Assembly (NCBI GenBank): GCA_949285605.1 | Contig: CASDZI010000015.1 | Location: 1-33,041 of the forward strand | Reading direction: 5' to 3' | Length of the DNA stretch: 33,041 nucleotides | Source: an uncultured Christensenella sp. | GTDB taxonomy: Bacteria > Bacillota > Clostridia > Christensenellales > DTU072 | In this document: positions 15,624-32,790 of the stretch, piece by piece | Numbering within the stretch: the first letter of the stretch is position 1 | Layout of the letters: each line of letters begins with the position of its first letter | Position numbers and translations under genes: made by a program | Notes under the pieces: model-generated | Database searches by the model: none | Seen by the model: only the letters and a program-made list of their open reading frames with translations | Told to the model about the DNA's origin: nothing

Positions 15624-15702
15624 AAAAACATAACCTCCTTTTAGAAGACTCGCTAACTTCGGGTGGCGAAAAACACGCACTTAAACCCTTCTTATGCGGT
15701 TA
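15624..15702 (-). promoter_or_regulatory. Structured leader of the rplU operon (L21-leader type)
   Basis: The roughly 80-nt untranslated leader between the predicted start of transcription and the rplU ATG contains nested pairings (AGAAG with CTTCT, GGGT with ACCC, TCGC with GCGA) ending at the AAGGAGG. Position and arrangement fit the L21 leader described in Bacillota, which autoregulates this operon. The assignment rests on position and hand-drawn pairing, not on a covariance search. Confidence 0.65.
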
Positions 15703-15708
15703 CAAAAT

Positions 15709-15737
15709 AATTTACCATAAACGCCGAATTTATGCAA
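15709..15737 (-). promoter_or_regulatory. Sigma-A promoter of the rplU operon
   Basis: Minus-strand TTGCAT (15732-15737), 17-bp spacer, TAAATT (15709-15714), just upstream of the structured leader. Confidence 0.65.
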
Positions 15738-16396: not shown

Positions 16397-16425
16397 TTGA
16401 CAAGCCTTTTTTTGCGGCATATAAT
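16397..16425 (+). promoter_or_regulatory. Consensus sigma-A promoter of the amt leader
   Basis: TTGACA (16397-16402), exactly 17 bp, TATAAT (16420-16425): a full-consensus promoter. The predicted start is near 16432, leaving a leader of about 290 nt before amt. Confidence 0.9.
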
Positions 16426-16445
16426 CAGTCACATAAACGGCAAAG

Positions 16446-16472
16446 ACGTCGCAGCAATCTGCGGCGTTTTTT
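16446..16472 (+). terminator. First hairpin-plus-T-tract in the amt leader
   Basis: A 9-bp stem (16446-16454 with 16459-16467, one G-U pair, loop CAAT) followed by six T, only about 14 nt after the predicted transcription start. Placed here it would stop transcription of everything downstream, so it is best read as an attenuator. Confidence 0.75.
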
Positions 16473-16520
16473 CTTTATTATACGGATAAATTTCATAGTC
16501 GTCCGATTATCCGATCTTTG

Positions 16521-16566
16521 CGGCAAAGGCGTCGCGGATTGCTCCGCTCCGTCTTTGCCGTTTTTT
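16521..16566 (+). terminator. Second, longer attenuator hairpin in the amt leader
   Basis: An outer 11-bp stem (16521-16531 with 16550-16560, one G-U), a 2x2 internal loop, an inner 4-bp GCGG/CCGC stem and a 6-nt loop ATTGCT, then TTTTTT. The 3' arm is also perfectly complementary over 11 nt to the first leader segment at 16438-16448, so the two ends can pair alternatively. A hexaloop with A at position 1 and G at position 4 is the signature recognised by ANTAR antiterminators; that link is inference. Confidence 0.75.
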
Positions 16567-16590: not shown

Positions 16591-16689
16591 ATGCGTAAAG
16601 AAAATCTTTCACCCTATCCCTTTACCGTCAATTACGCAAATTCGTCGGACGTATTCCGACAGCGAAATTGCCGCAGCGAAAACAATTGA
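16591..16689 (+). CDS. Small ORF (32 aa) in the amt leader
   Basis: A 32-codon reading frame starting ATG with AAGGAGG 6 nt upstream, one of the strongest ribosome binding sites in the window. It lies after the second attenuator and ends 35 nt before amt. The peptide begins MRKENLSPYPFTVNYANSS, with a C-terminus rich in Arg, Asn and Gln; there is no membrane segment and no domain I recognise. It may be a leader peptide coupling translation to amt expression or a small regulatory protein. The coding nature is supported mainly by the SD and position. Confidence 0.5.
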   Translation: MRKENLSPYPFTVNYANSSDVFRQRNCRSENN

Positions 16690-16724: not shown

Positions 16725-18428
16725 ATGGAAATAACCAACATTATGGAACTTTTTTCGGACGTAAACACTATGTGGGTGCTGATTGCCACCGCACTTGTGT
16801 TCTTTATGCAGGCAGGCTTCGCTATGGTGGAAACGGGCTTTACCCGAGCCAAAAACGCCGGTAACATCATTATGAAAAACCTTATGGACTTCTCCATCGG
16901 GACTCCGCTGTACTGGTTGGTAGGTTTCGGTATAATGTTCGGCACGCAGAGCGCCGTGTTCGGCGGAATAGACTTCTTCACGCAAGGAGATTATTCGGCT
17001 ATCCTCCCCGAAGGCGTGGACTTCTACGCTTACTTTATCTTCCAGACCGTCTTCTGCGCCACTTCGGCTACCATAGTCTCCGGCGCCATGGCGGAAAGAA
17101 CGAAATTCAGCAGTTATTGCATTTACAGCGCAATCATCAGTTTGCTCATCTATCCCATTTCCGGTCACTGGATATGGGGCGGCGGCTGGCTCGCCGACCT
17201 CGGGTTCCACGACTTTGCAGGCTCCACCGCAGTCCACCTCGTAGGAGGCGTTGCGGCTTGCGTGGGCGCAATTTTCGTCGGACCCAGGATAGGTAAATAC
17301 GTCAACGGCAAATCCCGCGCGATCCCCGGTCACAGCATTCCCCTCGGAGCGCTCGGCGTATTCATACTTTGGTTCTGCTGGTTCGGCTTCAACGGCGGTT
17401 CCACCGTCTCCATGACCAACGGAAACGCCGCCGTCGCCGGAAAGGTATTCTTCAACACCAACCTCTCCGCCGCCGTCGCCACCGTCACCGTAATGATTCT
17501 TTCTTGGATAAAATATAAAAAGCCCGACGTCTCCATGACGTTGAACGGTTCTCTTGCAGGTCTCGTAGCCGTCACGGCTTCCTGCGACATCATCGATCCC
17601 TGGGCTGCCGCCGTCATAGGCTTTGTCGCAGGCATAGCAATGCTCTTCGGCATAGAATTCATAGATAAGGTACTCAAAATCGACGATCCGGTAGGCGCAA
17701 TCGGCGTTCACGGAATAAGCGGCGCTCTCGGGACCATACTGGGAGGTCTGCTCGTCAACAACGAATCCCTTGCCGCAATGGAAATCTCCAGAGGTAAATT
17801 TTTCGGCGTGCAGCTTCTCGGCGTAGTCGTTACCGTCGCCTGGGTAGCCGTCACCATGACCATACTTTTCTTCGTCCTGAAAAAGACCGTGGGACTAAGG
17901 GTCAGCGCCGCAGAAGAGCTCTCCGGACTGGATATTCCCGAACACGGACTTGCCGGCGGAGCGTATGCGGACTTTATGCCCGTCAAGTCTCTCCCTGCCG
18001 AAACGACCGCCGTTTCCGAAGACGAAGCCGTTCCCGTTACTCTCAAGACCGCTCCCGTCGCTACCGACGGCGTCAAAATGAGCAAGGTGGAGATACTTTT
18101 CAAACAGGAGCGTTTCGAATCGCTCAAGAACGCCATGAAGGAAATCGGTATTACGGGAATGACCGTCTCCAACGTCCTCGGTTGCGGAATGCAGAGAGGA
18201 AAACCCGAATATTACCGTGGCGTCAAGAGAGAGATCGATCTGCTTCCGAAAATGCAAATGGATATAGTGGTCAGCAAGATCCCCGTATCCGAGGTCATCG
18301 CCGCCGCCAAGAAAGCGCTCTATACCGGTCATATCGGAGACGGCAAAATCTTCGTTTACAACGTGGAGAACGTCGTCAAAATCCGTACCGGAGAAGAAGG
18401 TTACGACGCTTTGCAGGACGTGGAATAA
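16725..18428 (+). CDS. amt: Ammonium transporter with fused C-terminal PII domain
   Basis: An inner-membrane ammonium channel/transporter fused to its own regulator, 567 residues. Residues 1-410 are Amt/MEP/Rh with 11 membrane segments: an N-terminal FMQAGFAMVETGFTRAKN, the substrate-site Asp in DFAGSTAVHLVGG with the first pore His, the second pore His in IGVHGISGALG, and the Amt C-terminal EELSGLDIPEHG. After an Ala/Thr-rich linker of about 45 residues, residues 453-567 form a complete GlnB/GlnK domain: the T-loop EYYRGVKREIDLLPK with the modifiable Tyr, the B-loop TGHIGDGKIFV and the C-loop IRTGEEG. PII normally plugs the channel in trans; here it is tethered. AAGGAG precedes the ATG. Confidence 0.95.
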   Translation: MEITNIMELFSDVNTMWVLIATALVFFMQAGFAMVETGFTRAKNAGNIIMKNLMDFSIGTPLYWLVGFGIMFGTQSAVFGGIDFFTQGDYSAILPEGVDFYAYFIFQTVFCATSATIVSGAMAERTKFSSYCIYSAIISLLIYPISGHWIWGGGWLADLGFHDFAGSTAVHLVGGVAACVGAIFVGPRIGKYVNGKSRAIPGHSIPLGALGVFILWFCWFGFNGGSTVSMTNGNAAVAGKVFFNTNLSAAVATVTVMILSWIKYKKPDVSMTLNGSLAGLVAVTASCDIIDPWAAAVIGFVAGIAMLFGIEFIDKVLKIDDPVGAIGVHGISGALGTILGGLLVNNESLAAMEISRGKFFGVQLLGVVVTVAWVAVTMTILFFVLKKTVGLRVSAAEELSGLDIPEHGLAGGAYADFMPVKSLPAETTAVSEDEAVPVTLKTAPVATDGVKMSKVEILFKQERFESLKNAMKEIGITGMTVSNVLGCGMQRGKPEYYRGVKREIDLLPKMQMDIVVSKIPVSEVIAAAKKALYTGHIGDGKIFVYNVENVVKIRTGEEGYDALQDVE

Positions 18429-20291: not shown

Positions 20292-22937
20292 TTAGGCAGA
20301 TTTTTCTTTGCTGTCTATAATCGCCCAAACGACATTCATCAAGTCATAAAATACGGTTTGTTGATTGGCTTCGCCAAATTCTCTATAAGACTTGAGACAA
20401 TGATGCATCTTCTTCATCTCGTCTTTTGTTTCGCCGTAGATCCAACCGAAAGCCATATGAAGTCTCACCCATCTGTCGTGTTCTATCGCGGATAAAAGTC
20501 TGAAGTCGTATTGATCAGAAACCATCGTTTGTTTTGCAAGAAAGCCCAAAACCGAGGCAAAGGTGCACACTTGCAAATTTGAATATTGTTTCCATAAACT
20601 GTTTGTATTAAATACATCATAGCATCCCTTCACATCAATCTTTCGCTTCTCGGTGTTTTTTTCCGAAGATCCTTTTTTCTTCTCAAGCATACTATCCACA
20701 AATTGTTCGGCTATTTTTAATATCTCGCCGTTCCAGTCATCTGAATCATAAGAGGGAGATTGCTGTAATTGATCTATTGATTTTTGGAAATCATTTATTA
20801 TATTCTTATAAAGTTTCTTATAAAGTTTTTTTTCTTTTAAAACCCTAAGCGTTTCTTTTAAAGCCAAAAGCGATTTCTCCGTTAAAGCATAAAAACATCT
20901 TATCGCCTTTGTTACTTTGCCATCGTCTTTAGTTTTTCCTATAATATATTTTTCCGAAGCTCCTATTGCATTAAATCCTTTCTTTATTTTGTCACTGATT
21001 CTTTCATAAGTAAAGTGATATCTCGACGGGTCTTCGTCTGAAATATATTTATATTGATAGATATCGTTGAAATTACCTACCGTCAGAACTTTGAGGTAGG
21101 AGTTATCCGGTTTGATGACCCTGTGGTTATTGTTTTTGTCGGCGATATGTACCAAGAGGTATTGTGAGACAGTATTGCTTTCCTGTAAAACATCCTGAAT
21201 AACGGTATTCGCTATTTGGATATTCAAATCGTCGTCGCCTGTGGCTACCACTATGACTTTCGGATAATATACTCCGTTAAAATACTTTTTCCATTGAGTT
21301 TCGACTTTGGTTTTCTTGTAATCGCCTTTAACCGAATCACTGAGCAATTTTAATATCTCAGCGCCTGTCGACGCTGTCCCGGAGGTAAGCCCGGCGCAAT
21401 CCTTACCGGTTTCCTTATCTATAATATCAAAGAAATTAAATTCCCGACAATCCGTTTGACGAAAACGGTAAATGGGTTTAGGTAACGATTCGTTATATTT
21501 CCCTTCGAAAATTTTCTCAGGTTTGGCGAACAACGCTCCCACCGATTTTATATGACGGCAGACCGTATTGATATCCTCTTCACTTATTCCCGTATCCTTT
21601 AATTTTTTTAATTTATTTTTTTTAGCTTTACAAATATTATTTATTTTATTTTCTTCATTCTTTGTCACCAATAAGTAATTGGGATGGTTGGCTCGAAAAA
21701 TTCCGCCTATGCGTTCGGCTTCCTTATCGAAAACCTCCGCAAAAAACTTGCGCGGAATAAACTTTATGCTTGCCCCGTCCTTGCTGGTGACTTGGCATTC
21801 CACATTCGCAGTTTTTATATAAATTTCCCGAGCTATCGCTTCGCCTCGCGAACCGAAACCGATAGACCACATATATAACGGTTTATTGTCTTTTAACTCC
21901 TCCAAAAAATTGTTTTCTATTAAAGTTTCAAAAGACTGTAACCCTATCATATCGGCTTCACACCAGCATTTAATGTTGAAAAAGTCATTAAATTTGTCTT
22001 TTTCCATTCCAGAGTTTTTCACAAATTTTTCTTTTAATTCGTCTACCATTTTCTGATAAGCCGGATAATCTATTTTGTCTCTGATCAGAATATAGTATTC
22101 TATTCTTAAACTATCTTTATGCTCTATTCTGGTACAAACGTCGTCATAGACTGTGTCGATATTTTCCGATTCCAAAGGAATATGGTTTTCGGAGGCGAAA
22201 GCAAAGACTCTTATTCTTTTTTTGTAATTGCCTACGTTGCGGTACACTCCGCCTTTGTTCCCGAATCCGAAACAACCGCTCAAGCTCGCCGCTATGCTTT
22301 TAACCGAAACGATACCTCCGTCTTTGATCTTCTTCTTTTTGGCGTATGACCAGTAAAGCATTCCGTTGGACATAACTCTTCGGCACAGTTCATTCTTTCT
22401 GTCGAAGACTGCTATTCTCGGTCCGGCAAAAACTATAAGGCTTTTTTTGTCTCCTTTTCGGATACTTTCGGCAAGTTTTATCGTTTCCTCCGATAAGTCG
22501 GTAATAATATATATATTTTTATTCAGCACGAACTTCAATCTGATTTTGGAATAAAATTCGTAACTTGCTCTGGCGGACAATATAAACAAAGTCATGATAC
22601 CGGCGTAAAGCGGGGCTCCGTAAAACAAGATAAGACTTATTTCGGAAACCTCTTTACCGACGCCCGTTGCGGCGTCCGGCAGTCCTTCAAAGGTCAAACC
22701 GCCTATTCCGGTATAAAGAGCTTCGAAAAATTTAGATAGAGTAAGGGTCCCGCCGGCATTGACGCCCCAAACGACGGCTTTGACGGCAACGCTGAAAATC
22801 AATACCGCCGCAATAAAAACAAATTCCACTATGGCTTTAGTGTATGCGAACTTCCTTCTGAAGAAAAAATAGGCCATTATGCTTAACATCAATAAAGCAA
22901 ACCAACCTACCAATAACAAAATCTCTAAAAAGCCCAT
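20292..22937 (-). CDS. Channel-like membrane protein with RCK/TrkA-like and RyR domains
   Basis: A protein of 881 residues that I recognise by parts. N-terminal membrane unit: TM1 5-27, TM2 33-57, a re-entrant pore-loop-like segment 66-86 (FFEALYTGIGGLTFEG) and TM3 98-124, the layout of a two-to-three-TM ion channel, though the canonical TVGYG filter is absent. Cytoplasmic part: Rossmann/RCK-like strand NIYIITDLSEETIKLAESI (141-159), a second one WSIGFGSRGEAIARE (357-371), and a third VIVVATGDDDLNIQIANTV (561-579). The C-terminus (812-860) is a RyR domain: EHDRW, GWIYGE, KKMHHCLKSY. It sits downstream of the vWA/PP2C/kinase/TerD operon with its own consensus promoter and a GGGGGAG SD. It is likely a ligand-gated membrane effector; ion selectivity and ligand are unknown. 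Confidence 0.75.
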   Translation of the reverse strand: MGFLEILLLVGWFALLMLSIMAYFFFRRKFAYTKAIVEFVFIAAVLIFSVAVKAVVWGVNAGGTLTLSKFFEALYTGIGGLTFEGLPDAATGVGKEVSEISLILFYGAPLYAGIMTLFILSARASYEFYSKIRLKFVLNKNIYIITDLSEETIKLAESIRKGDKKSLIVFAGPRIAVFDRKNELCRRVMSNGMLYWSYAKKKKIKDGGIVSVKSIAASLSGCFGFGNKGGVYRNVGNYKKRIRVFAFASENHIPLESENIDTVYDDVCTRIEHKDSLRIEYYILIRDKIDYPAYQKMVDELKEKFVKNSGMEKDKFNDFFNIKCWCEADMIGLQSFETLIENNFLEELKDNKPLYMWSIGFGSRGEAIAREIYIKTANVECQVTSKDGASIKFIPRKFFAEVFDKEAERIGGIFRANHPNYLLVTKNEENKINNICKAKKNKLKKLKDTGISEEDINTVCRHIKSVGALFAKPEKIFEGKYNESLPKPIYRFRQTDCREFNFFDIIDKETGKDCAGLTSGTASTGAEILKLLSDSVKGDYKKTKVETQWKKYFNGVYYPKVIVVATGDDDLNIQIANTVIQDVLQESNTVSQYLLVHIADKNNNHRVIKPDNSYLKVLTVGNFNDIYQYKYISDEDPSRYHFTYERISDKIKKGFNAIGASEKYIIGKTKDDGKVTKAIRCFYALTEKSLLALKETLRVLKEKKLYKKLYKNIINDFQKSIDQLQQSPSYDSDDWNGEILKIAEQFVDSMLEKKKGSSEKNTEKRKIDVKGCYDVFNTNSLWKQYSNLQVCTFASVLGFLAKQTMVSDQYDFRLLSAIEHDRWVRLHMAFGWIYGETKDEMKKMHHCLKSYREFGEANQQTVFYDLMNVVWAIIDSKEKSA

Positions 22938-24900: not shown

Positions 24901-25809
24901 TTATACTTTTCTGCAATCGGGCAACATTTCGTCAATGCTTCTGGCTTTACTGCTTTGCCCGAGCGCTTTGAAAATCCAACCGCCGTCAGCAGCCTTCCTT
25001 GCTACTCCGATAATCAATGCGGTGTCGGTTTTGAGGTTATCGGTAACCTTATATTCTATCAGAAGTTTGTTGTTATCGGGATCGTAAAGCTTTATGTACA
25101 TATTCTTCACGTCACCAAATACTTGCTGCCTTTTTTTGCAGTCGTATATGTTGAGAATAAACACTAATTTATCCCTGTTGTCCGGAACTTTATAAAGATA
25201 AACGTCTATGCTTTCGTCATCCGCATTGGCACCTAAGTCTATTCCGGTAAGGTTGTCTCCGTGATGTATCACGCAACCGCTCGGATGCTTTCTGTTGCCG
25301 AAATATACCACCTCTTCTCCGGAACATCCGGAAACCACCACGGAGGAATCTATATCCATATCCTTTCCTTGTTGCACGGGATCCCAACCGGTTCCCACAA
25401 GAATATGCCTTAAAGGTTTTCCGTTATTGCTGATTTTTACTTCTTGTCCCTGGGAAAGCTTTATGGTTTCTCCTTCTCTGTGATTTCCCGTCATCACTGC
25501 CGGAGCACGATCGATCTCCAATTCGGAGCAATACACGCATTGAAAATTATATTCGTTTTTCTTAACTCCGCATTGGGACATACAACTACATCCGCCGACG
25601 GTTCTTTGCCCGCATTTTTTACAAGGCAAAAGACTTTTCGCCGTTTCGAATTTTTCCTGGCAGATTTGGTTTTGCATAACCGACGCTTCTTCTTCGGAAA
25701 TTGCAATAAAGTTTATTACCTTCCATTTCGACTCTAAACGTTTGACTTCCAGGGCAAAATGCCTCCCGGTCTTCTTGCAGCAGACTTTGACCATTTGAGT
25801 TTCATTCAT
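24901..25809 (-). CDS. TerD-family protein with N-terminal zinc ribbon
   Basis: A protein of 302 residues. Residues 60-95 hold a cysteine cluster (CKKC at 63-66, then C74, C76, C80, and CVYC at 91-94), probably one or two zinc sites. Residues 115-300 are a TerD domain: LSQGQEVKISNNG, HILVGTGWDP, the acidic DMDIDSSVVV, HHGDNLTGIDLGANADDESI, the diagnostic LVFILNIYDCKKRQQVFGDV, and WIFKALGQ. TerD domains bind Ca2+ through such acidic clusters and belong to tellurite, phage and chemical stress systems. The N-terminal 50 residues resemble a small beta domain. It lies 22 nt after the kinase with a GGAGG SD, so it is the likely soluble partner or substrate of the kinase/phosphatase pair. Confidence 0.88.
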   Translation of the reverse strand: MNETQMVKVCCKKTGRHFALEVKRLESKWKVINFIAISEEEASVMQNQICQEKFETAKSLLPCKKCGQRTVGGCSCMSQCGVKKNEYNFQCVYCSELEIDRAPAVMTGNHREGETIKLSQGQEVKISNNGKPLRHILVGTGWDPVQQGKDMDIDSSVVVSGCSGEEVVYFGNRKHPSGCVIHHGDNLTGIDLGANADDESIDVYLYKVPDNRDKLVFILNIYDCKKRQQVFGDVKNMYIKLYDPDNNKLLIEYKVTDNLKTDTALIIGVARKAADGGWIFKALGQSSKARSIDEMLPDCRKV

Positions 25810-25831
25810 AATTGACCTCCTGTATTATCGA

Positions 25832-27250
25832 TTAAGTTAGTTTCTTTAAGTAGCCTTTAAGGATAATATTGCTTACCACCATAGTGATTAAGCTGTTATT
25901 GGTACGTTCCAATGCATATTGATCCTTACCGTCGGATCTTATAAGCACGATACCCTTGTATCCGTCCTTTCTTAAAAGGGCTTCGTCTATCGTATATTTC
26001 GTGCCTCTGAAATTGATGTTTTTAACGCTCTCACGTCTTGTCGCATCTACTTTTTTCACTTTTTTAACAGGCGTAGTATGCTCGGCATATCCTAAAAGAA
26101 CAAGGTTGTTGCGACTCTTGGTTTCGATCTCGCCTTTATCTTTATAAAGCTCGTAGGAACGGCGGCCCGCTTCTTCCTTCCGTTCAATCGCAACATAATT
26201 GCGTTTCTTGAGTTCTTCGATCTTGAAAACGATTTCATCCTCTTCCCACGGCTCGCAGAAAGATTTGGGAGCTGTCGTTTTTCGGGATACGCTCCTCTTC
26301 GTTTTATTTCCGCCGATATATTTTACTCCCGGATTGTCTTTTACTTCGAGAACTCTTCCGTTGTGAAGCGCCTTTATGACTTCCTGCGCCGAAAGACGTT
26401 CTTTCGGATCCGAATACAGCATATTTGCGATAACCGAACGCAAAAATTCGTTTTTTATTGCATCCCCTATACGGAGCCTCATGCCTTTAAGGACCGCTTC
26501 CCCGCAATACATGGTGCCGCTTTTTAAGCATTTTCCAGATTTATCGATAATATCCGGAAATTTCCCTCCCGAAAGATAGTTGTAAAACACCAAGCCTAAA
26601 GAGAAAATATCGGATTTGTCGGACAAGTCTTTTATCGATTCATCGGAATAATCGCTTATAAGGCACTTAACCAACTCCGGAGACATATAGCACTGATCTC
26701 CTCCCAGGTCATCGGGTCTTATATTGTTTATATCGTAGCTTTTGTCGAAGTCGATGATTTTTGCGACGATCCTCTTTCCCGAGCTGCTTCGAACAACTAT
26801 AATATTGGATCTTTTAAGATCGCTGTGTACGATACCTTTTCCGTGTATAGCTTCCAACGAGGCAACCGCAGTCAACATAAGGAATTTTTTATCGACCTCG
26901 TCTAACAAGTAAATCTGGCTTTCGTCGAAAACATTGTCGAAGAACTCCGTAGCTTCCACAAAGCAACAGTCGTTTACAAAACTATCCGTCGGAGAAACTA
27001 TGTTCCCTCCGCTCCCGGAGATCTCTTTAAGTTTGCTGTTGATATTTTCTCGACTTTTTTTAAAATCGTTAAACCTCTTTTGCGACCGTTCGTAAGACTG
27101 TGCCGTCATGGAACTTTTGGAACGGGGGAATTTATATCCGGAGTATTTCTTAAGAAAATACTTTTTTCCGCCCTTCTCTGCCAGAGTCGTATAGCCTGTG
27201 TTGGATATCTCCCACTCTTTCAAAATATTATAACCGTTAACTATATTCAT
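25832..27250 (-). CDS. Ser/Thr protein kinase of the vWA-PP2C-kinase triad
   Basis: A soluble kinase of 472 residues, no membrane segment. The kinase domain spans about 8-296: ATP Lys in YFLKKY (K34), catalytic loop IVHSDLKRSNIIV (HSD instead of HRD, with catalytic D144, K146, N149), metal-binding DFD (167-169, for DFG), YMSPEL (APE equivalent) and SDKSDIFSLGLVF. All catalytic residues are present, so activity is expected. The HSDLK-type loop fits kinases of the Ter-associated triad. After a basic linker the C-terminus has two similar 50-residue segments (about 340-389 and 417-468) that I do not recognise. Its ATG overlaps the PP2C stop as ATGA, a sign of fixed stoichiometry. Confidence 0.93.
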   Translation of the reverse strand: MNIVNGYNILKEWEISNTGYTTLAEKGGKKYFLKKYSGYKFPRSKSSMTAQSYERSQKRFNDFKKSRENINSKLKEISGSGGNIVSPTDSFVNDCCFVEATEFFDNVFDESQIYLLDEVDKKFLMLTAVASLEAIHGKGIVHSDLKRSNIIVVRSSSGKRIVAKIIDFDKSYDINNIRPDDLGGDQCYMSPELVKCLISDYSDESIKDLSDKSDIFSLGLVFYNYLSGGKFPDIIDKSGKCLKSGTMYCGEAVLKGMRLRIGDAIKNEFLRSVIANMLYSDPKERLSAQEVIKALHNGRVLEVKDNPGVKYIGGNKTKRSVSRKTTAPKSFCEPWEEDEIVFKIEELKKRNYVAIERKEEAGRRSYELYKDKGEIETKSRNNLVLLGYAEHTTPVKKVKKVDATRRESVKNINFRGTKYTIDEALLRKDGYKGIVLIRSDGKDQYALERTNNSLITMVVSNIILKGYLKKLT

Positions 27251-28869
27251 ATTTTAGCCTCCATTCGGAAACAGTCGTACTGCGCATAATAATCTTTCAT
27301 CAGTTCGTTTCTCTTTTCCATACATTGAATTACGGCGATGTTCCGCTCCCTGATCTCTAAAGCTTTACTATTCAACGCCTCCACTACGGATTCGGGTAAA
27401 ATATCCCGGTGAAGATACCATATTTCTTTGATCACCGCCGAACTGTTCGCACGCCAGTATCTATCGGTCATATTTTCGGTAATTTCCTGTCGTAAGTTTT
27501 CGGGTAAATCGTCTATCGGATCGGTCTTATTCCATTCCCAAAGCCAATTCTTCAGTTCATTGGTAGTAAATTGCTCCGATAAATACTTTGTTTTGGCTTT
27601 TTTTATCGCCTCGACATAGGGTTTGTAATCCTTTTCCCGTATGATTCCGGCAATATATTCCCTTATTTTAGGTAACTTTATCCACCTCGCTGCCTCAATG
27701 GTCAGATAATTCTCGAATTCCTCTTTTATCGGCATATATTCCCTTTCATAGTCCCTAACGAGGATGTCTGGCAAAGGCTTCAGGAATTTATCTTCCATAT
27801 ACTTACGTCTTCTGTTGACGGCAACTTTGAAAGATTTATAATTCTTGTACCCTAAGGTTTTGATTGCCATACTTCCGCTGTCGTCGTGATTCCCTATCTC
27901 TTCGAAATATTTCTTCAGCTTTTCCCCCGCTTTTTTCAAACTGACGCATTCGGAAAAGATTTTCAACAACCTCGCTTCCATATGAAGAGGAGTTTTGAAC
28001 GCTGCGCTTTTGTAAACACCGTCGGTCATATTGAAAAGCACACACGGTTTTTCGAATTGGAAATAAGCGGTTTCCAAAAAGAAATCCTTGCTGAGAGAAA
28101 CGAGATTGGTCATGACTTCGTTTTTTTCGTGATCTGTCGTCAGCTGATGCAACCCGCTTTTGTTCCACATATAAGCGCGCGAATCTCCCGCCCAGAAATA
28201 ATAAACGTCTACCTTGTCGGACGTTTCCTTATATAAAGCGAAATTAAGAGTGGTCGGTAATAAATACGCTCCCGTTATATTCGCTTCGTTGACAAGAGAA
28301 AGTTTGTCGGCTATTCTGCCGAGTTTGTCCTTTATGGTTTTGACAAGGTACGCCGCATAATCTTGGGCTGCCGCCGCAGGCTCGTCGGAATTAAAGAAAA
28401 GTTCCGACGCCGGGCGCTGCCCGTACTTCAATTCGTATAAAACCGTTGCCGCAACAATTCTCGAGGCGAAATATCCGCTTGTTCTGACGGTTTCTTCGAA
28501 ATTCTTATAGTAGTCCCGCATTTTGAACAATTCCCCAAAACACTTCTTAAAATAATATTTCGTATCATCCGTTTCGGAAATTTTGTCGTAATTTTCAAAC
28601 ACATCGGCAAACGCTTTTCTGCAAAATTCTTCTTTTTGCAAATCCTGATCGGCAGTTCCGGCCAATACTTCTTCTACGACCTTGCTGTTATGACGATAGC
28701 CGCCTCTTCCGCCCAGGCCGTCCGCTACCAGCAAAATGCCGTCACCGGAGTAAGGAAACACGTCCTCTCCCAAATAGATGATCCTGAAATTGCGTTGCAA
28801 GGTCTTTTGCCTGTATATGCTCCAAGAGGAGACTTTCTTATAATTGATATTCTTCTTTATTTTTTGCAT
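27247..28869 (-). CDS. PP2C-family protein phosphatase of the triad
   Basis: A phosphatase of 540 residues from ATG 28869, which has AGGAG 6 nt upstream; an in-frame extension to 29007 runs back into the vWA gene and lacks an SD. PP2C motifs are in order: ILLVADGLGGRGG (metal Asp 50 and Gly 51), YYFWAGDSRAYMW (228-233 GDSRAY), LTTDH, NMTDGVYK (D283) and NHDDSGSMAI (D329/D330), so the metal centre looks complete. Residues 350-540 form an extra helical, Lys/Glu/Trp-rich region beyond a normal PP2C and may dock the kinase or vWA protein. It would reverse the phosphorylation placed by the coupled kinase. Confidence 0.92.
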   Translation of the reverse strand: MQKIKKNINYKKVSSWSIYRQKTLQRNFRIIYLGEDVFPYSGDGILLVADGLGGRGGYRHNSKVVEEVLAGTADQDLQKEEFCRKAFADVFENYDKISETDDTKYYFKKCFGELFKMRDYYKNFEETVRTSGYFASRIVAATVLYELKYGQRPASELFFNSDEPAAAAQDYAAYLVKTIKDKLGRIADKLSLVNEANITGAYLLPTTLNFALYKETSDKVDVYYFWAGDSRAYMWNKSGLHQLTTDHEKNEVMTNLVSLSKDFFLETAYFQFEKPCVLFNMTDGVYKSAAFKTPLHMEARLLKIFSECVSLKKAGEKLKKYFEEIGNHDDSGSMAIKTLGYKNYKSFKVAVNRRRKYMEDKFLKPLPDILVRDYEREYMPIKEEFENYLTIEAARWIKLPKIREYIAGIIREKDYKPYVEAIKKAKTKYLSEQFTTNELKNWLWEWNKTDPIDDLPENLRQEITENMTDRYWRANSSAVIKEIWYLHRDILPESVVEALNSKALEIRERNIAVIQCMEKRNELMKDYYAQYDCFRMEAKI

Positions 28870-28896
28870 TACGTTCTCCTGTGTCTGTTGTTTGAA

Positions 28897-28923
28897 GCGG
28901 CATGCCTTATTCAGGCATACCGC
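28897..28923 (-). other. Intercistronic hairpin between vWA and PP2C genes
   Basis: A 10-bp stem (28897-28906 with 28914-28923, one G-U on the minus-strand RNA, 7-nt loop) in the 83-nt gap. There is no T-tract after it, so it is more likely an mRNA stabiliser or processing site that favours the vWA transcript than a terminator. Confidence 0.6.
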
Positions 28924-28952
28924 TCCTTCCCCCTTTCCTTGACAAACCGGAG

Positions 28953-29618
28953 TTAAATGGAATTGACGAGAATCCTTATACACGTTTCCATATCGTTTTC
29001 CCCACAACCGGCACCGGCTTGAGAGTAATACGGGAAAGTCTGTTCCCAGTCTTCCAGCTCATTCCAAGGCCAGACGTTCGGCGCAAAAACGATAAGGCGT
29101 TTAGCGCGATTTTCCATATTCTGTCCGTCCCACCACTCTCGTAGTTCGGCAAGGTCCATAGGCATATCTTCCGGATATTTTTCGGAGTCTTTCCTATCCT
29201 GCAATGCCAAAGCGGGTGCGTCGGTGTACATAAGCGTTACATGACGTCTGACCGTTCCGCTTTTAGTCCAATCGGACTTTAAAGCCGCCGCCAAAGCTTC
29301 GAGCGAGTTTTCCGCCTCGTCTCCGCCACCGGTTGCCGTAATATTGTTTACGAAATCGATAAATTCGGTTTTTTCTTCGTCCAGTTTGAAAAACTTAGAT
29401 TCCGTAAAAGGTTCCGCATCGCATCCGAAATCACGGAAGGCAATAATTTTAATACGAAGGTTTTCCACCCTCTTGTTCGCTTTTTTCATCTCATCCAGGA
29501 ATTTTTCCCTAAGACGAGTCGCATTGTTTTTTACTTCGTCAATAATGGGAGACATACTCCCCGTTGCGTCGATACACATAACTATATCGACATTGTAATC
29601 AAGTTCTTGAAGACTCAT
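28953..29618 (-). CDS. TerY-type vWA domain protein
   Basis: A single-domain vWA protein of 221 residues. The MIDAS is complete: DATGS (17-21), the Thr of ITATGGGDEAENS (T96) and the Asp of LMYTDAPA (D133). The surrounding LRIKIIAFRDFGCDAEPF, ITATGGGDEAENSLEAL and KRLIVFAPNVWPWNELEDW are the long signature stretches of TerY-group vWA proteins. It is presumably the metal-dependent scaffold or adaptor that brings kinase, phosphatase and TerD together. First gene of the five-gene operon, with AAAGGAG 8 nt before the ATG. Confidence 0.92.
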   Translation of the reverse strand: MSLQELDYNVDIVMCIDATGSMSPIIDEVKNNATRLREKFLDEMKKANKRVENLRIKIIAFRDFGCDAEPFTESKFFKLDEEKTEFIDFVNNITATGGGDEAENSLEALAAALKSDWTKSGTVRRHVTLMYTDAPALALQDRKDSEKYPEDMPMDLAELREWWDGQNMENRAKRLIVFAPNVWPWNELEDWEQTFPYYSQAGAGCGENDMETCIRILVNSI

Positions 29619-29891: not shown

Positions 29892-30251
29892 TTATCTTTC
29901 TTCGAGAATAAGAATATCAAAGATATTCATTTTACAGATTTGGCAATAAAAGAGCAGATCGTCGATATCGGGATTCGTTCTGCCGCTTTCCCAATTAACG
30001 ATAACGCTGTCCGAAACTCCGAAAACTTGTGCAAGTTCCTTTTGGCTGATCCTTTCGTCCATTTCGAATCTGCAATTTTCACAATCGCGCCGAGAACAAT
30101 TTTCAATTTTGCCCTTAAGCTGAAAACAAACGTATTTTCTTAAGTTTTCGTTATACTGCCGCAATAAAGCCAGATTTTTACTGGTTTTTTTCCAATCCAC
30201 AAATTGTCTCTTGTTTTTGTCCAAAGTATTGTTCCCCTCTATCTTTTTCAT
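29892..30251 (-). CDS. XRE-type HTH regulator with cysteine motifs
   Basis: A protein of 119 residues. The C-terminal half is a Cro/CI-type HTH: RISQKELAQVFGVSDSVIVN then WESGRTNPDIDDLL. Just before it lies NCSRRDCENC (C52, C57, C60), and after it CQIC (C103, C106), enough ligands for a zinc or redox site flanking the DNA-binding domain. The N-terminal 50 residues are basic and helical. AAGGAG lies 6 nt before the ATG. Its position directly upstream of the vWA operon, in the same orientation, makes it the likely local regulator, perhaps sensing metal or oxidation. Confidence 0.85.
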   Translation of the reverse strand: MKKIEGNNTLDKNKRQFVDWKKTSKNLALLRQYNENLRKYVCFQLKGKIENCSRRDCENCRFEMDERISQKELAQVFGVSDSVIVNWESGRTNPDIDDLLFYCQICKMNIFDILILEER

Positions 30252-30438: not shown

Positions 30439-30648
30439 TCAAAGATCCTCATCTGTCGACTCGACAAAAATTCTTATACCGGCTCTTCTAAACATAAATG
30501 CGAAAGCATTGTATCCGAATTCCTTATCCTGCGGGTGTTTAATCAAAAGCTCCTATGCTTTCTCGGAAATAAATCTACGAAATTCGATATTAATATTCCC
30601 TGCTTCAAAGCTGCCGATATCGGACCGTGCCGTAACGCATCGGATCAC
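30439..30648 (-). pseudogene. Broken small gene coupled to the TIR gene
   Basis: A 70-codon minus-strand frame starts GTG, overlapping the TIR stop as GTGA, and is interrupted at codon 32 by TAG (30553-30555). Both halves read as ordinary protein: ARSDIGSFEAGNINIEFRRF before the stop, and LLIKHPQDKEFGYNAFAFMF then RRAGIRIFVESTDEDL after it. TAG is a normal stop here (it ends the ABC ATPase), so this is probably a nonsense-mutated gene. I do not recognise the family. It could instead be a sequencing error or the detached C-terminal end of a longer TIR protein. Confidence 0.45.
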
Positions 30649-31904
30649 TTATGGCTTTTACTTGATTGTTTCAATTTCTTAAGTAACCGGCGATAAACAT
30701 CTTTATTGTAAGCTATTACTTCTTTGGGCATATCTTTGCACCAAATATTGCACTTTTTAATAGTTTCATAATCAAGCCTGTCAATGTTTTGCCACTTTCT
30801 ACTCTCATAAAAAGTGTACAATATACTCAGGTCTAACGAGCGATAAGCCATTTTGCCTTGCGATTTTTTAAGCCTGTTGATCCTTGCTCTGCGACAATTA
30901 TCCCACGGAGCCGTGCCGTCGTCCAAATATAGATATGGATCTTTGCCGACTACATCGTTAAAAAATATTAACGTCCAGGAGCGGTTGACAACATCTTCGT
31001 CATAGCCGTGAAATATCCTTTTGGCAAATTCATAAGGCACGGTATATTCGCCTAATGAAGCCAAGCCGTAAGCTAACGATTGTCTTTGCCATACATCGGG
31101 TTCTTTATAATAAAATTCTTTTAATTTTTCGATAATGGCGTTATCGATCAAACTACGGCACAACCTTGTCAGATAAAATATCAGTTGCCCTTTTATGGCA
31201 TACTCCCGCCTGCCGCTTATGTTGCCGTCAAGCTGTACTCTGCCGTATGCGCCAATCAGGTTATCGGCAACTGTTTTCTTTGTATCGACAGACAAACCGT
31301 CATAGGTAAGATACACATATTGATTAACATCGGCAAAATGAAGATTGCTCAAAATATCAATAGTTTCCTTTATACCGCTACAAAAAGCTTCTACCATTTG
31401 TCTCGCAATATCTATCAACTGTGCCTTACTCATAGTTTTCTCTTGCTCAATATTACTAAACTTATTGATTTTGAGTGGACGTCCGTCATATCTTTCACCG
31501 GCAAAGAGCTTAGCTATATCCCTTAAAATATCGGCAGTGGCATTATCGTTTATATCTACACTCTTGACACATTGCGATACTTGCGTATTGGACAACAAAA
31601 ACTTAAACTCGTCATTTAACTCAAACTGTTCCAACAGAACTCCAAAAACAGGCTTTTGGTAATTGATGGCACGCTCTATTTCCTTGTTAATCCAAGGCGA
31701 ATAGCAAATAGCTTCTGTCATAATGAGCAGCAGGCACTTACAGTTCCTGATACTTTTTTCAATAATATTAGCGTATCTTTCTCCTACAGGTATATCGTTA
31801 GGCGCTATCCAAACATTATAGTTTTGCTGTTCCAGTAATTTCTTGAAGTCAAAAGCAAATTCTCTGTTCTTGGTGCTGTAACTTATGAAAATATATTCTT
31901 CCAT
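30645..31904 (-). CDS. TIR-domain protein with unrecognised C-terminal region
   Basis: A protein of 419 residues from ATG 31904, which has AAGGAG 5 nt upstream; a TTG 24 nt further up is a weaker choice. Residues 1-130 are a TIR domain: EEYIFISYSTKNREFAFDF, LLEQQNYNVWIAPNDIPVG, IRNCKCLLLIMTEAI and SPWINKEIERAI, whose Glu sits where TIR NADases have the catalytic Glu, then KPVFGVLLE. Residues 140-419 are helical with polar/aromatic repeats and no motif I recognise, possibly a sensor or HEAT-like region. Bacterial TIR proteins of this layout often deplete NAD+ in antiphage defence. No partner such as a Thoeris ThsA is visible. It is a separate unit from the vWA operon. Confidence 0.85.
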   Translation of the reverse strand: MEEYIFISYSTKNREFAFDFKKLLEQQNYNVWIAPNDIPVGERYANIIEKSIRNCKCLLLIMTEAICYSPWINKEIERAINYQKPVFGVLLEQFELNDEFKFLLSNTQVSQCVKSVDINDNATADILRDIAKLFAGERYDGRPLKINKFSNIEQEKTMSKAQLIDIARQMVEAFCSGIKETIDILSNLHFADVNQYVYLTYDGLSVDTKKTVADNLIGAYGRVQLDGNISGRREYAIKGQLIFYLTRLCRSLIDNAIIEKLKEFYYKEPDVWQRQSLAYGLASLGEYTVPYEFAKRIFHGYDEDVVNRSWTLIFFNDVVGKDPYLYLDDGTAPWDNCRRARINRLKKSQGKMAYRSLDLSILYTFYESRKWQNIDRLDYETIKKCNIWCKDMPKEVIAYNKDVYRRLLKKLKQSSKSHK

Positions 31905-32790
31905 CATATCTCCTTGTGTATTATCCAAAAGCGTAAATTGATAATATTTTCTTTTTCAGATTTTTATCGGCAAACGGCACATTCCCTTACAGCGTATGAA
32001 TATCTGCAAGGGTAGTAAAACAACAATTATTTTTTATTTTGGTTTTCGGCATAAAAACGATTTTTCGTAACTTTAGCATAAGCGTCGCAGTTCCCTATCG
32101 AGATTTCCGTTTACTCGGATACATCACCTGTTCATTATAGAAAGTAGTTATGAGCATAAAACGGTTAAATTTCGTTCTGAGTTGTAAGCCAACTGTTGCG
32201 CTTTTCCCTCGCATTGAATATGGCACACTTCTCGTTTTCGTTCAAGCTGTACCATATTTTGCCTTTAGATAATGATAAGTGTGATTTTATTATACATAAA
32301 TTCGCAATTGATTACAATAATAGAACATTATTTTCTATGGCATTCAATTATAAATTACCTATAACTTTTTCTAATATATGTATTTGAATTTAGTTGCCGT
32401 TTTTTTTGCGTATCCGCTATAAGATCTGAAAACCCTGCAATCTGTATCTCCCTCCCGTTAATCCTTTCTCGTTTTTCCGCAAAAAATATGGCGTTTTTGA
32501 ACGCATGGTTTATATTGATCATTGACGATGCTGTCTTTTATTCACGGCTCTCGAAGCTTCTCGAAATACATAAATGTAATATCTGCGATTGCGCGTATTA
32601 ATTGCAAAACCATCTTAAAGTTGCCTTTCTCTGCGTTATTTTATTCTTTTTTAATCGTATTTCCGCAAAATCCGCATCTGTCTGTTGACCTCGCAATTCC
32701 CCTTTCATAGCGAATCTTATTTCTCATAATACTACTACGCCTTTGCCTGCGACGCGTCTGGCAAGCATTCCGCCTACCTGCAAGGAATAA
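31905..32790. other. Gene-poor AT-rich intergenic stretch
   Basis: About 890 bp without a gene I can support. Two open frames of 62-63 codons on the plus strand (32196-32387 and 32522-32710) have no ribosome binding site or recognisable content. Minus-strand frames near 32630-32780 contain protein-like pieces such as LARRVAGKGVVVL, broken by stops, and may be remnants of a dispersed element. No convincing tRNA, CRISPR or promoter was found; one TATAAT on the minus strand (32133-32138) lacks a good -35 box. Confidence 0.4.

Follow-up and report, generated by a model that had tools for sequence, protein, structure and literature searches.

The leader 16397-16566 of the ammonium transporter gene is very probably a transcription-attenuation leader in which two ANTAR-responsive attenuators stand in series before amt-PII. 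It is a shorter version of the known ANTAR nitrogen-control switch, and the mutual exclusion is between a mini-hairpin and a terminator inside each hairpin rather than long-range. We computed the promoter, the terminators, the mini-hairpins, their covariation in relatives, a regulon and a single linked ANTAR gene. The features of the leader and its gene, all on the plus strand of the window (the whole 33,041-nt stretch of DNA analyzed here), are as follows.

16397-16425, plus strand: sigma-70/A type promoter TTGACA-17-TATAAT, 12/12 consensus
16438-16451, plus strand: ANTAR-type mini-hairpin 1, CGGC[AAAGAC]GTCG, with hexaloop AAAGAC at 16442-16447 (A1, G4); from hexaloop scan, family covariation and RNA model
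16442-16472, plus strand: terminator T1, 13-bp stem and T6, the hexaloop of mini-hairpin 1 lying in its 5' arm
16483-16514, plus strand: linker hairpin CGGATAA...TTATCCG with 16-nt loop TTTCATAGTCGTCCGA; from fold and sister-species sequence
16517-16538, plus strand: ANTAR-type mini-hairpin 2, TTTGCGGC[AAAGGC]GTCGCGGA, 8 bp, with hexaloop AAAGGC at 16525-16530 (A1, G4); from hexaloop scan, family covariation and fold
16520-16566, plus strand: terminator T2, stem 16520-16561 and T6 16561-16566, the hexaloop of mini-hairpin 2 lying in its 5' arm
16591-16689, plus strand: small ORF between T2 and amt, coding for 32 aa (MRKENLSPYPFTVNYANSSDVFRQRNCRSENN); ribosome-binding site AAAAAGGAGG
16725-18428, plus strand: 567-aa ammonium transporter with a P-II domain fused at its C-terminus (Pfam)

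The promoter, called full-consensus in the earlier note, indeed scores as such, and no second 12/12 match was found in the 4 kb scanned. The two hairpin-plus-T6 terminators that the note placed after it also fold as described, with energies of −17.0 kcal/mol for T1 (16442-16471) and −29.0 kcal/mol for T2. On energies alone, the mini-hairpins reach just −2.5 and −8.6 kcal/mol against these values, and protein binding would therefore be required for antitermination. The leader as a whole is far more stable than shuffled sequence (z −7.6), largely because T1 and T2 share sequence, the first arm of one fitting the last arm of the other. The downstream gene is the only amt gene of the genome, and its product matches the Pfam families Ammonium_transp (residues 16-409) and P-II (452-557).

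In each attenuator, an A1/G4 hexaloop is closed by a stem of 3 bp or more, and the mini-hairpin so formed shares bases with the 5' base of an intrinsic terminator; both features are hallmarks of an ANTAR target. Because mini-hairpin and terminator share bases, the arrangement has the signature of a switch, and mini-hairpins 1 and 2 are the predicted antiterminator forms of attenuators 1 and 2. The first hairpin had been said to lack an A1/G4 loop; this was mistaken, as T1 has AAAGAC at its 5' base and T2 likewise has AAAGGC. As proposed, the top of T2 can be folded with ATTGCT as its apical loop, flanked by GCGG and CCGC, but the loop likely to be recognized is the 5'-base hexaloop instead. 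In the attenuator family, A1/G4 hexaloops occur as apical loops in only 3/115 cases. Thus, the suggested ANTAR link is strongly supported by conservation, gene neighborhood and regulon, although it had been assigned to the wrong loop.

Conservation was examined in leaders from relatives (108 amt, 39 glnN and 23 GOGAT), and the element was present in 43/108, 25/39 and 14/23 of these, respectively. Many amt genes lie inside a glnN operon, where they need no element of their own. Among named genome loci, 47/80 have the element, including those of Anaerocolumna sedimenticola and Blautia schinkii. When the loop sequence was left unconstrained, 81 of the 88 hexaloops at terminator 5' bases of amt, glnN and GOGAT leaders had A1 and G4, where equal bases would give 1/16. 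At sites picked by AANGR, three stem pairs formed at loop size 6 in 90/120 cases and in just 2-7 at loop sizes 4, 5, 7 and 8.

Covariation, which the earlier note had proposed to look for before amt genes of relatives, was seen in amt, glnN and GOGAT leaders of related genomes: the mini-hairpin covaries, and so does the terminator stem that overlaps it. Across 59 diverse sites, 82 cells changed on both sides of the mini-hairpin stem (18.1 in shuffles) and 206 did so in the terminator stem (67.8 in shuffles), these cells coming from related sequences. Both counts drop at every slide of the control alignment. The 59 sequences were pre-selected for three mini-stem pairs plus a terminator, which inflates the paired percentages, and the compensatory counts and the loop-size test on AANGR sites are the safer evidence.

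The layout is conserved as well. In relatives, the glnN-amt operons and the divergent GOGAT-glnA-ANTAR operons begin with a near-perfect promoter, followed after ~6-20 nt by the hairpin. A promoter of at least 10/12 stands in this layout before 51 of 90 related attenuators, compared with ~2% in shuffles, and the 6-20 nt spacing holds for most glnN and GOGAT cases. The exact tandem amt leader, with linker hairpin and small ORF, is common to this and one sister species only.

The earlier note had called for a search for an ANTAR regulator, and the genome contains exactly one ANTAR gene, directly behind glnA; it lies at L033:2081-2665 on the minus strand and encodes 194 aa. The ANTAR domain of its product is a clear match (55.8 bits), while the receiver-like domain matches Response_reg weakly, below the cut-off. 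In the aligned glnA-linked ANTAR proteins, the acceptor Asp is replaced by Asn, so that the protein does not have the phosphorylatable receiver domain of EutV-type ANTAR response regulators; judging from this substitution, its input is probably something other than phosphorylation. Some of the residues through which EutV contacts RNA are also changed, as read off the alignment (Arg168 to Glu, Arg175 to Cys and Arg177 to Ser). In relatives, the ANTAR gene lies behind glnA or in a GOGAT operon opposite glnN-amt. Among 98 related genomes, 38 have both amt and the ANTAR gene, 3 have amt only, 16 have ANTAR only and 41 have neither (Fisher p 4e-11, uncorrected for relatedness). One genome (G079) has amt with the element, yet no ANTAR gene was found in its 93% complete assembly.

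By sequence, the same one-hexaloop element is also placed before glnN, encoding type III glutamine synthetase, and before a glutamate synthase gene. An exact copy of GGCAAAGRCGTC occurs in the genome only in the amt leader (twice) and in the glnN leader (once per strand, in its palindromic hairpin). The RNA model matches mini-hairpin 1 with E 1.2e-5, this sequence itself being in the training set; the glnN leader (E 3.3e-7) and the GOGAT-gene leader (E 0.0048) match from outside it. The next match in the genome has E 0.6, and the matches are thus confined to ammonium-assimilation genes. Given the element before amt, glnN and GOGAT, the ANTAR protein would govern an ammonium-assimilation regulon. 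The glnN leader hairpin (L033 4147-4192; G000:C2:82146-82191) is an almost perfect 20-bp palindrome, which is why the RNA model matches both strands, and the glnA-ANTAR operon, which is faced by its opposite strand, has no clear attenuator in its own leader. In other genomes, several matches that were inspected proved to be ordinary terminators, so that the RNA model alone was rejected as a specific finder.

In the proposed mechanism, the nascent RNA would by default fold into T1, any polymerase that escapes would meet T2, and amt-PII would be off. An active ANTAR protein would bind the A1/G4 hexaloop of each mini-hairpin as the RNA emerges, so that the 5' arm could not pair with the 3' arm of the terminator and polymerase would read through to amt. 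With the mini-hairpins stabilized in this way, polymerase would pass both terminators, probably under nitrogen limitation. We infer binding, antitermination and the signal, and the role of the ANTAR protein as an activator under nitrogen limitation is proposed by analogy. In Clostridium saccharobutylicum, the ANTAR protein NitR acts by antitermination to switch on GS/GOGAT genes when nitrogen is limiting (Stutz et al. 2007, as summarized in the review PMC6316151). The system proposed here would likewise use ANTAR antitermination to that end, whereas its predicted targets include amt and glnN. Two attenuators in series should lower leakage. The sensor could possibly be an ANTAR protein held inactive by glutamine synthetase, an idea whose sole basis is the constant linkage to glnA.

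EutV recognizes A1/G4 hexaloops and blocks terminators, thereby causing antitermination (Ramesh 2012, PMC3369931). Like the targets of EutV, NasR and AmiR, the elements described here have a short stem capped by an A1/G4 hexaloop at the terminator 5' base, mutually exclusive with the terminator, and the genes behind them are nitrogen genes, among them ammonium transporters. The C-G closing pair, often with A-U next, resembles that of the EutV P1 loop. In contrast to those targets, however, the elements here have one hexaloop and no P1, the mini-hairpin sits at the predicted 5' end of the RNA, and amt has two attenuators in series. The ANTAR protein also differs, being of a pseudo-receiver type linked to glnA.

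Could the leader nonetheless be a canonical EutV-type target, with P1 and P2 formed by mini-hairpin 2 and the apical ATTGCT loop, or by mini-hairpins 1 and 2? Both loops of T2 do have A1 and G4, and the glnN hairpin of the same genome also has an apical A1/G4 loop, AACGGA. However, apical loops of this kind are rare in the family, as noted above, and in the sister species the apical loop of the glnN hairpin is 7 nt long. The ATTGCT stem shares bases with the 8-bp mini-hairpin 2, and mini-hairpins 1 and 2 are 65 nt apart, more than the 2-25 nt linker used for ANTAR RNAs (PMC8164766). Furthermore, no P1 hairpin with an A1/G4 hexaloop was found in the 45 nt upstream at any of the 90 sites (0/90; 2.0 expected from shuffles, 3-bp stems), and where a promoter is recognizable there is no room for one. 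We consider this explanation unlikely. The elements, which do not consist of two hairpins joined by such a linker, fall outside the dual-hexaloop family as defined, yet appear to work like it.

A still less probable alternative is the long-range RNA switch of the earlier note, where pairing of 16438-16448 with 16550-16560 would remove both terminators. The complementarity itself is real: the 11 nt CGGCAAAGACG at 16438-16448 are exactly complementary to 16550-16560, the match is identical in the sister species, and when the whole leader is folded, the giant hairpin so formed has the lowest energy, −60 kcal/mol. Yet it is an automatic by-product of two copies of one mini-hairpin sequence. Nor would the pairing do what was claimed for it, as the T2 3' arm is made ~79 nt after the U-run of T1, too late to spare T1, and even with that arm paired to 16438-16448, a G+C hairpin would still abut T6. 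Conservation in relatives, on which the note had staked the idea, failed in most diverged tandem leaders. Namely, cross-pairing is at chance in L102 and L165 and weaker than the own terminators in L094, L107, L159 and L164; among tandem leaders with diverged copies, only L170 keeps it.

We give very little credence to the idea that the leader senses nitrogen without a protein, as a metabolite riboswitch or otherwise. The linker hairpin with its 16-nt loop, conserved in two species, would be the candidate: within 16472-16516, the sister species (L003) has the identical loop TTTCATAGTCGTCCGA between differing flanks. This hairpin is nevertheless absent from the other leaders, and from all fetched genomes other than the sister species. 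An Rfam scan at gathering score found no riboswitch or cis-regulator at the leader, including the glutamine riboswitch, and a relaxed scan gave no convincing weak match. Family-wide conservation is limited to the hexaloop and the terminator pairing, which is too small for a binding pocket. The idea that these are ordinary intrinsic terminators, constitutive or at gene ends, whose hexaloops are there by chance has equally scant probability: AAAG..CTTT arms are generally common in terminators, but A1/G4 invariance, a loop size of exactly 6, a promoter lying 6-20 nt upstream of most glnN and GOGAT attenuators and, in this genome, restriction of the element to ammonium-assimilation genes all oppose it, and the covariation of the mini-stems already contradicts it.

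The ANTAR-responsive tandem attenuator would bring ammonium uptake and assimilation in gut Clostridia under control at the RNA level, with a defined regulator, RNA signature and regulon. The minimal ANTAR binding motif is a single hexaloop, although EutV antitermination still needs two (Walshe 2022, PMC8934654). The elements here resemble the single-hexaloop sites proposed in that study; those sites were proposed for settings free of the time limit set by a transcribing polymerase, whereas ours lie inside transcription attenuators. They bear on why EutV needs two hexaloops though one binds, and the covarying one-hexaloop family offers natural test RNAs. We lean, with some reserve, towards the wider view that P1-less ANTAR attenuators are widespread in Clostridia, that one hexaloop at the 5' end suffices with a glnA-linked pseudo-receiver ANTAR protein, that the EutV recruitment-hairpin model is not general, and that tandem copies (amt here, glnN elsewhere) make a tighter, two-gate switch.

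The 32-aa ORF between T2 and amt (16591-16689) has a strong ribosome-binding site. It is kept in the sister species, where codons 1-26 show 5 synonymous differences and a single Asp/Glu exchange, a pattern suggestive of translation into a small protein or a leader peptide. A family search with it returned no match, and weak matches in other relatives look like chance. A plasmid near-identity search gave a sole match of 104 bases, which is coding.

Several other features were observed in the window. A ribosomal protein L21 leader lies at 15636-15711 on the minus strand (Rfam RF00559, 39.8 bits). The minus-strand cluster at 24901-29618 encodes TerD, a Ser/Thr protein kinase, a PP2C-like phosphatase and von Willebrand A proteins, resembling tellurite-type stress or defense signaling clusters. 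A TIR-domain protein (30645-31928; TIR_2, with the Thoeris ThsB model also matching) is adjoined by the gene for a small HTH regulator (29892-30251). Finally, a RyR domain close to the C-terminus is the only assigned part of the 881-aa protein encoded at 20292-22937.
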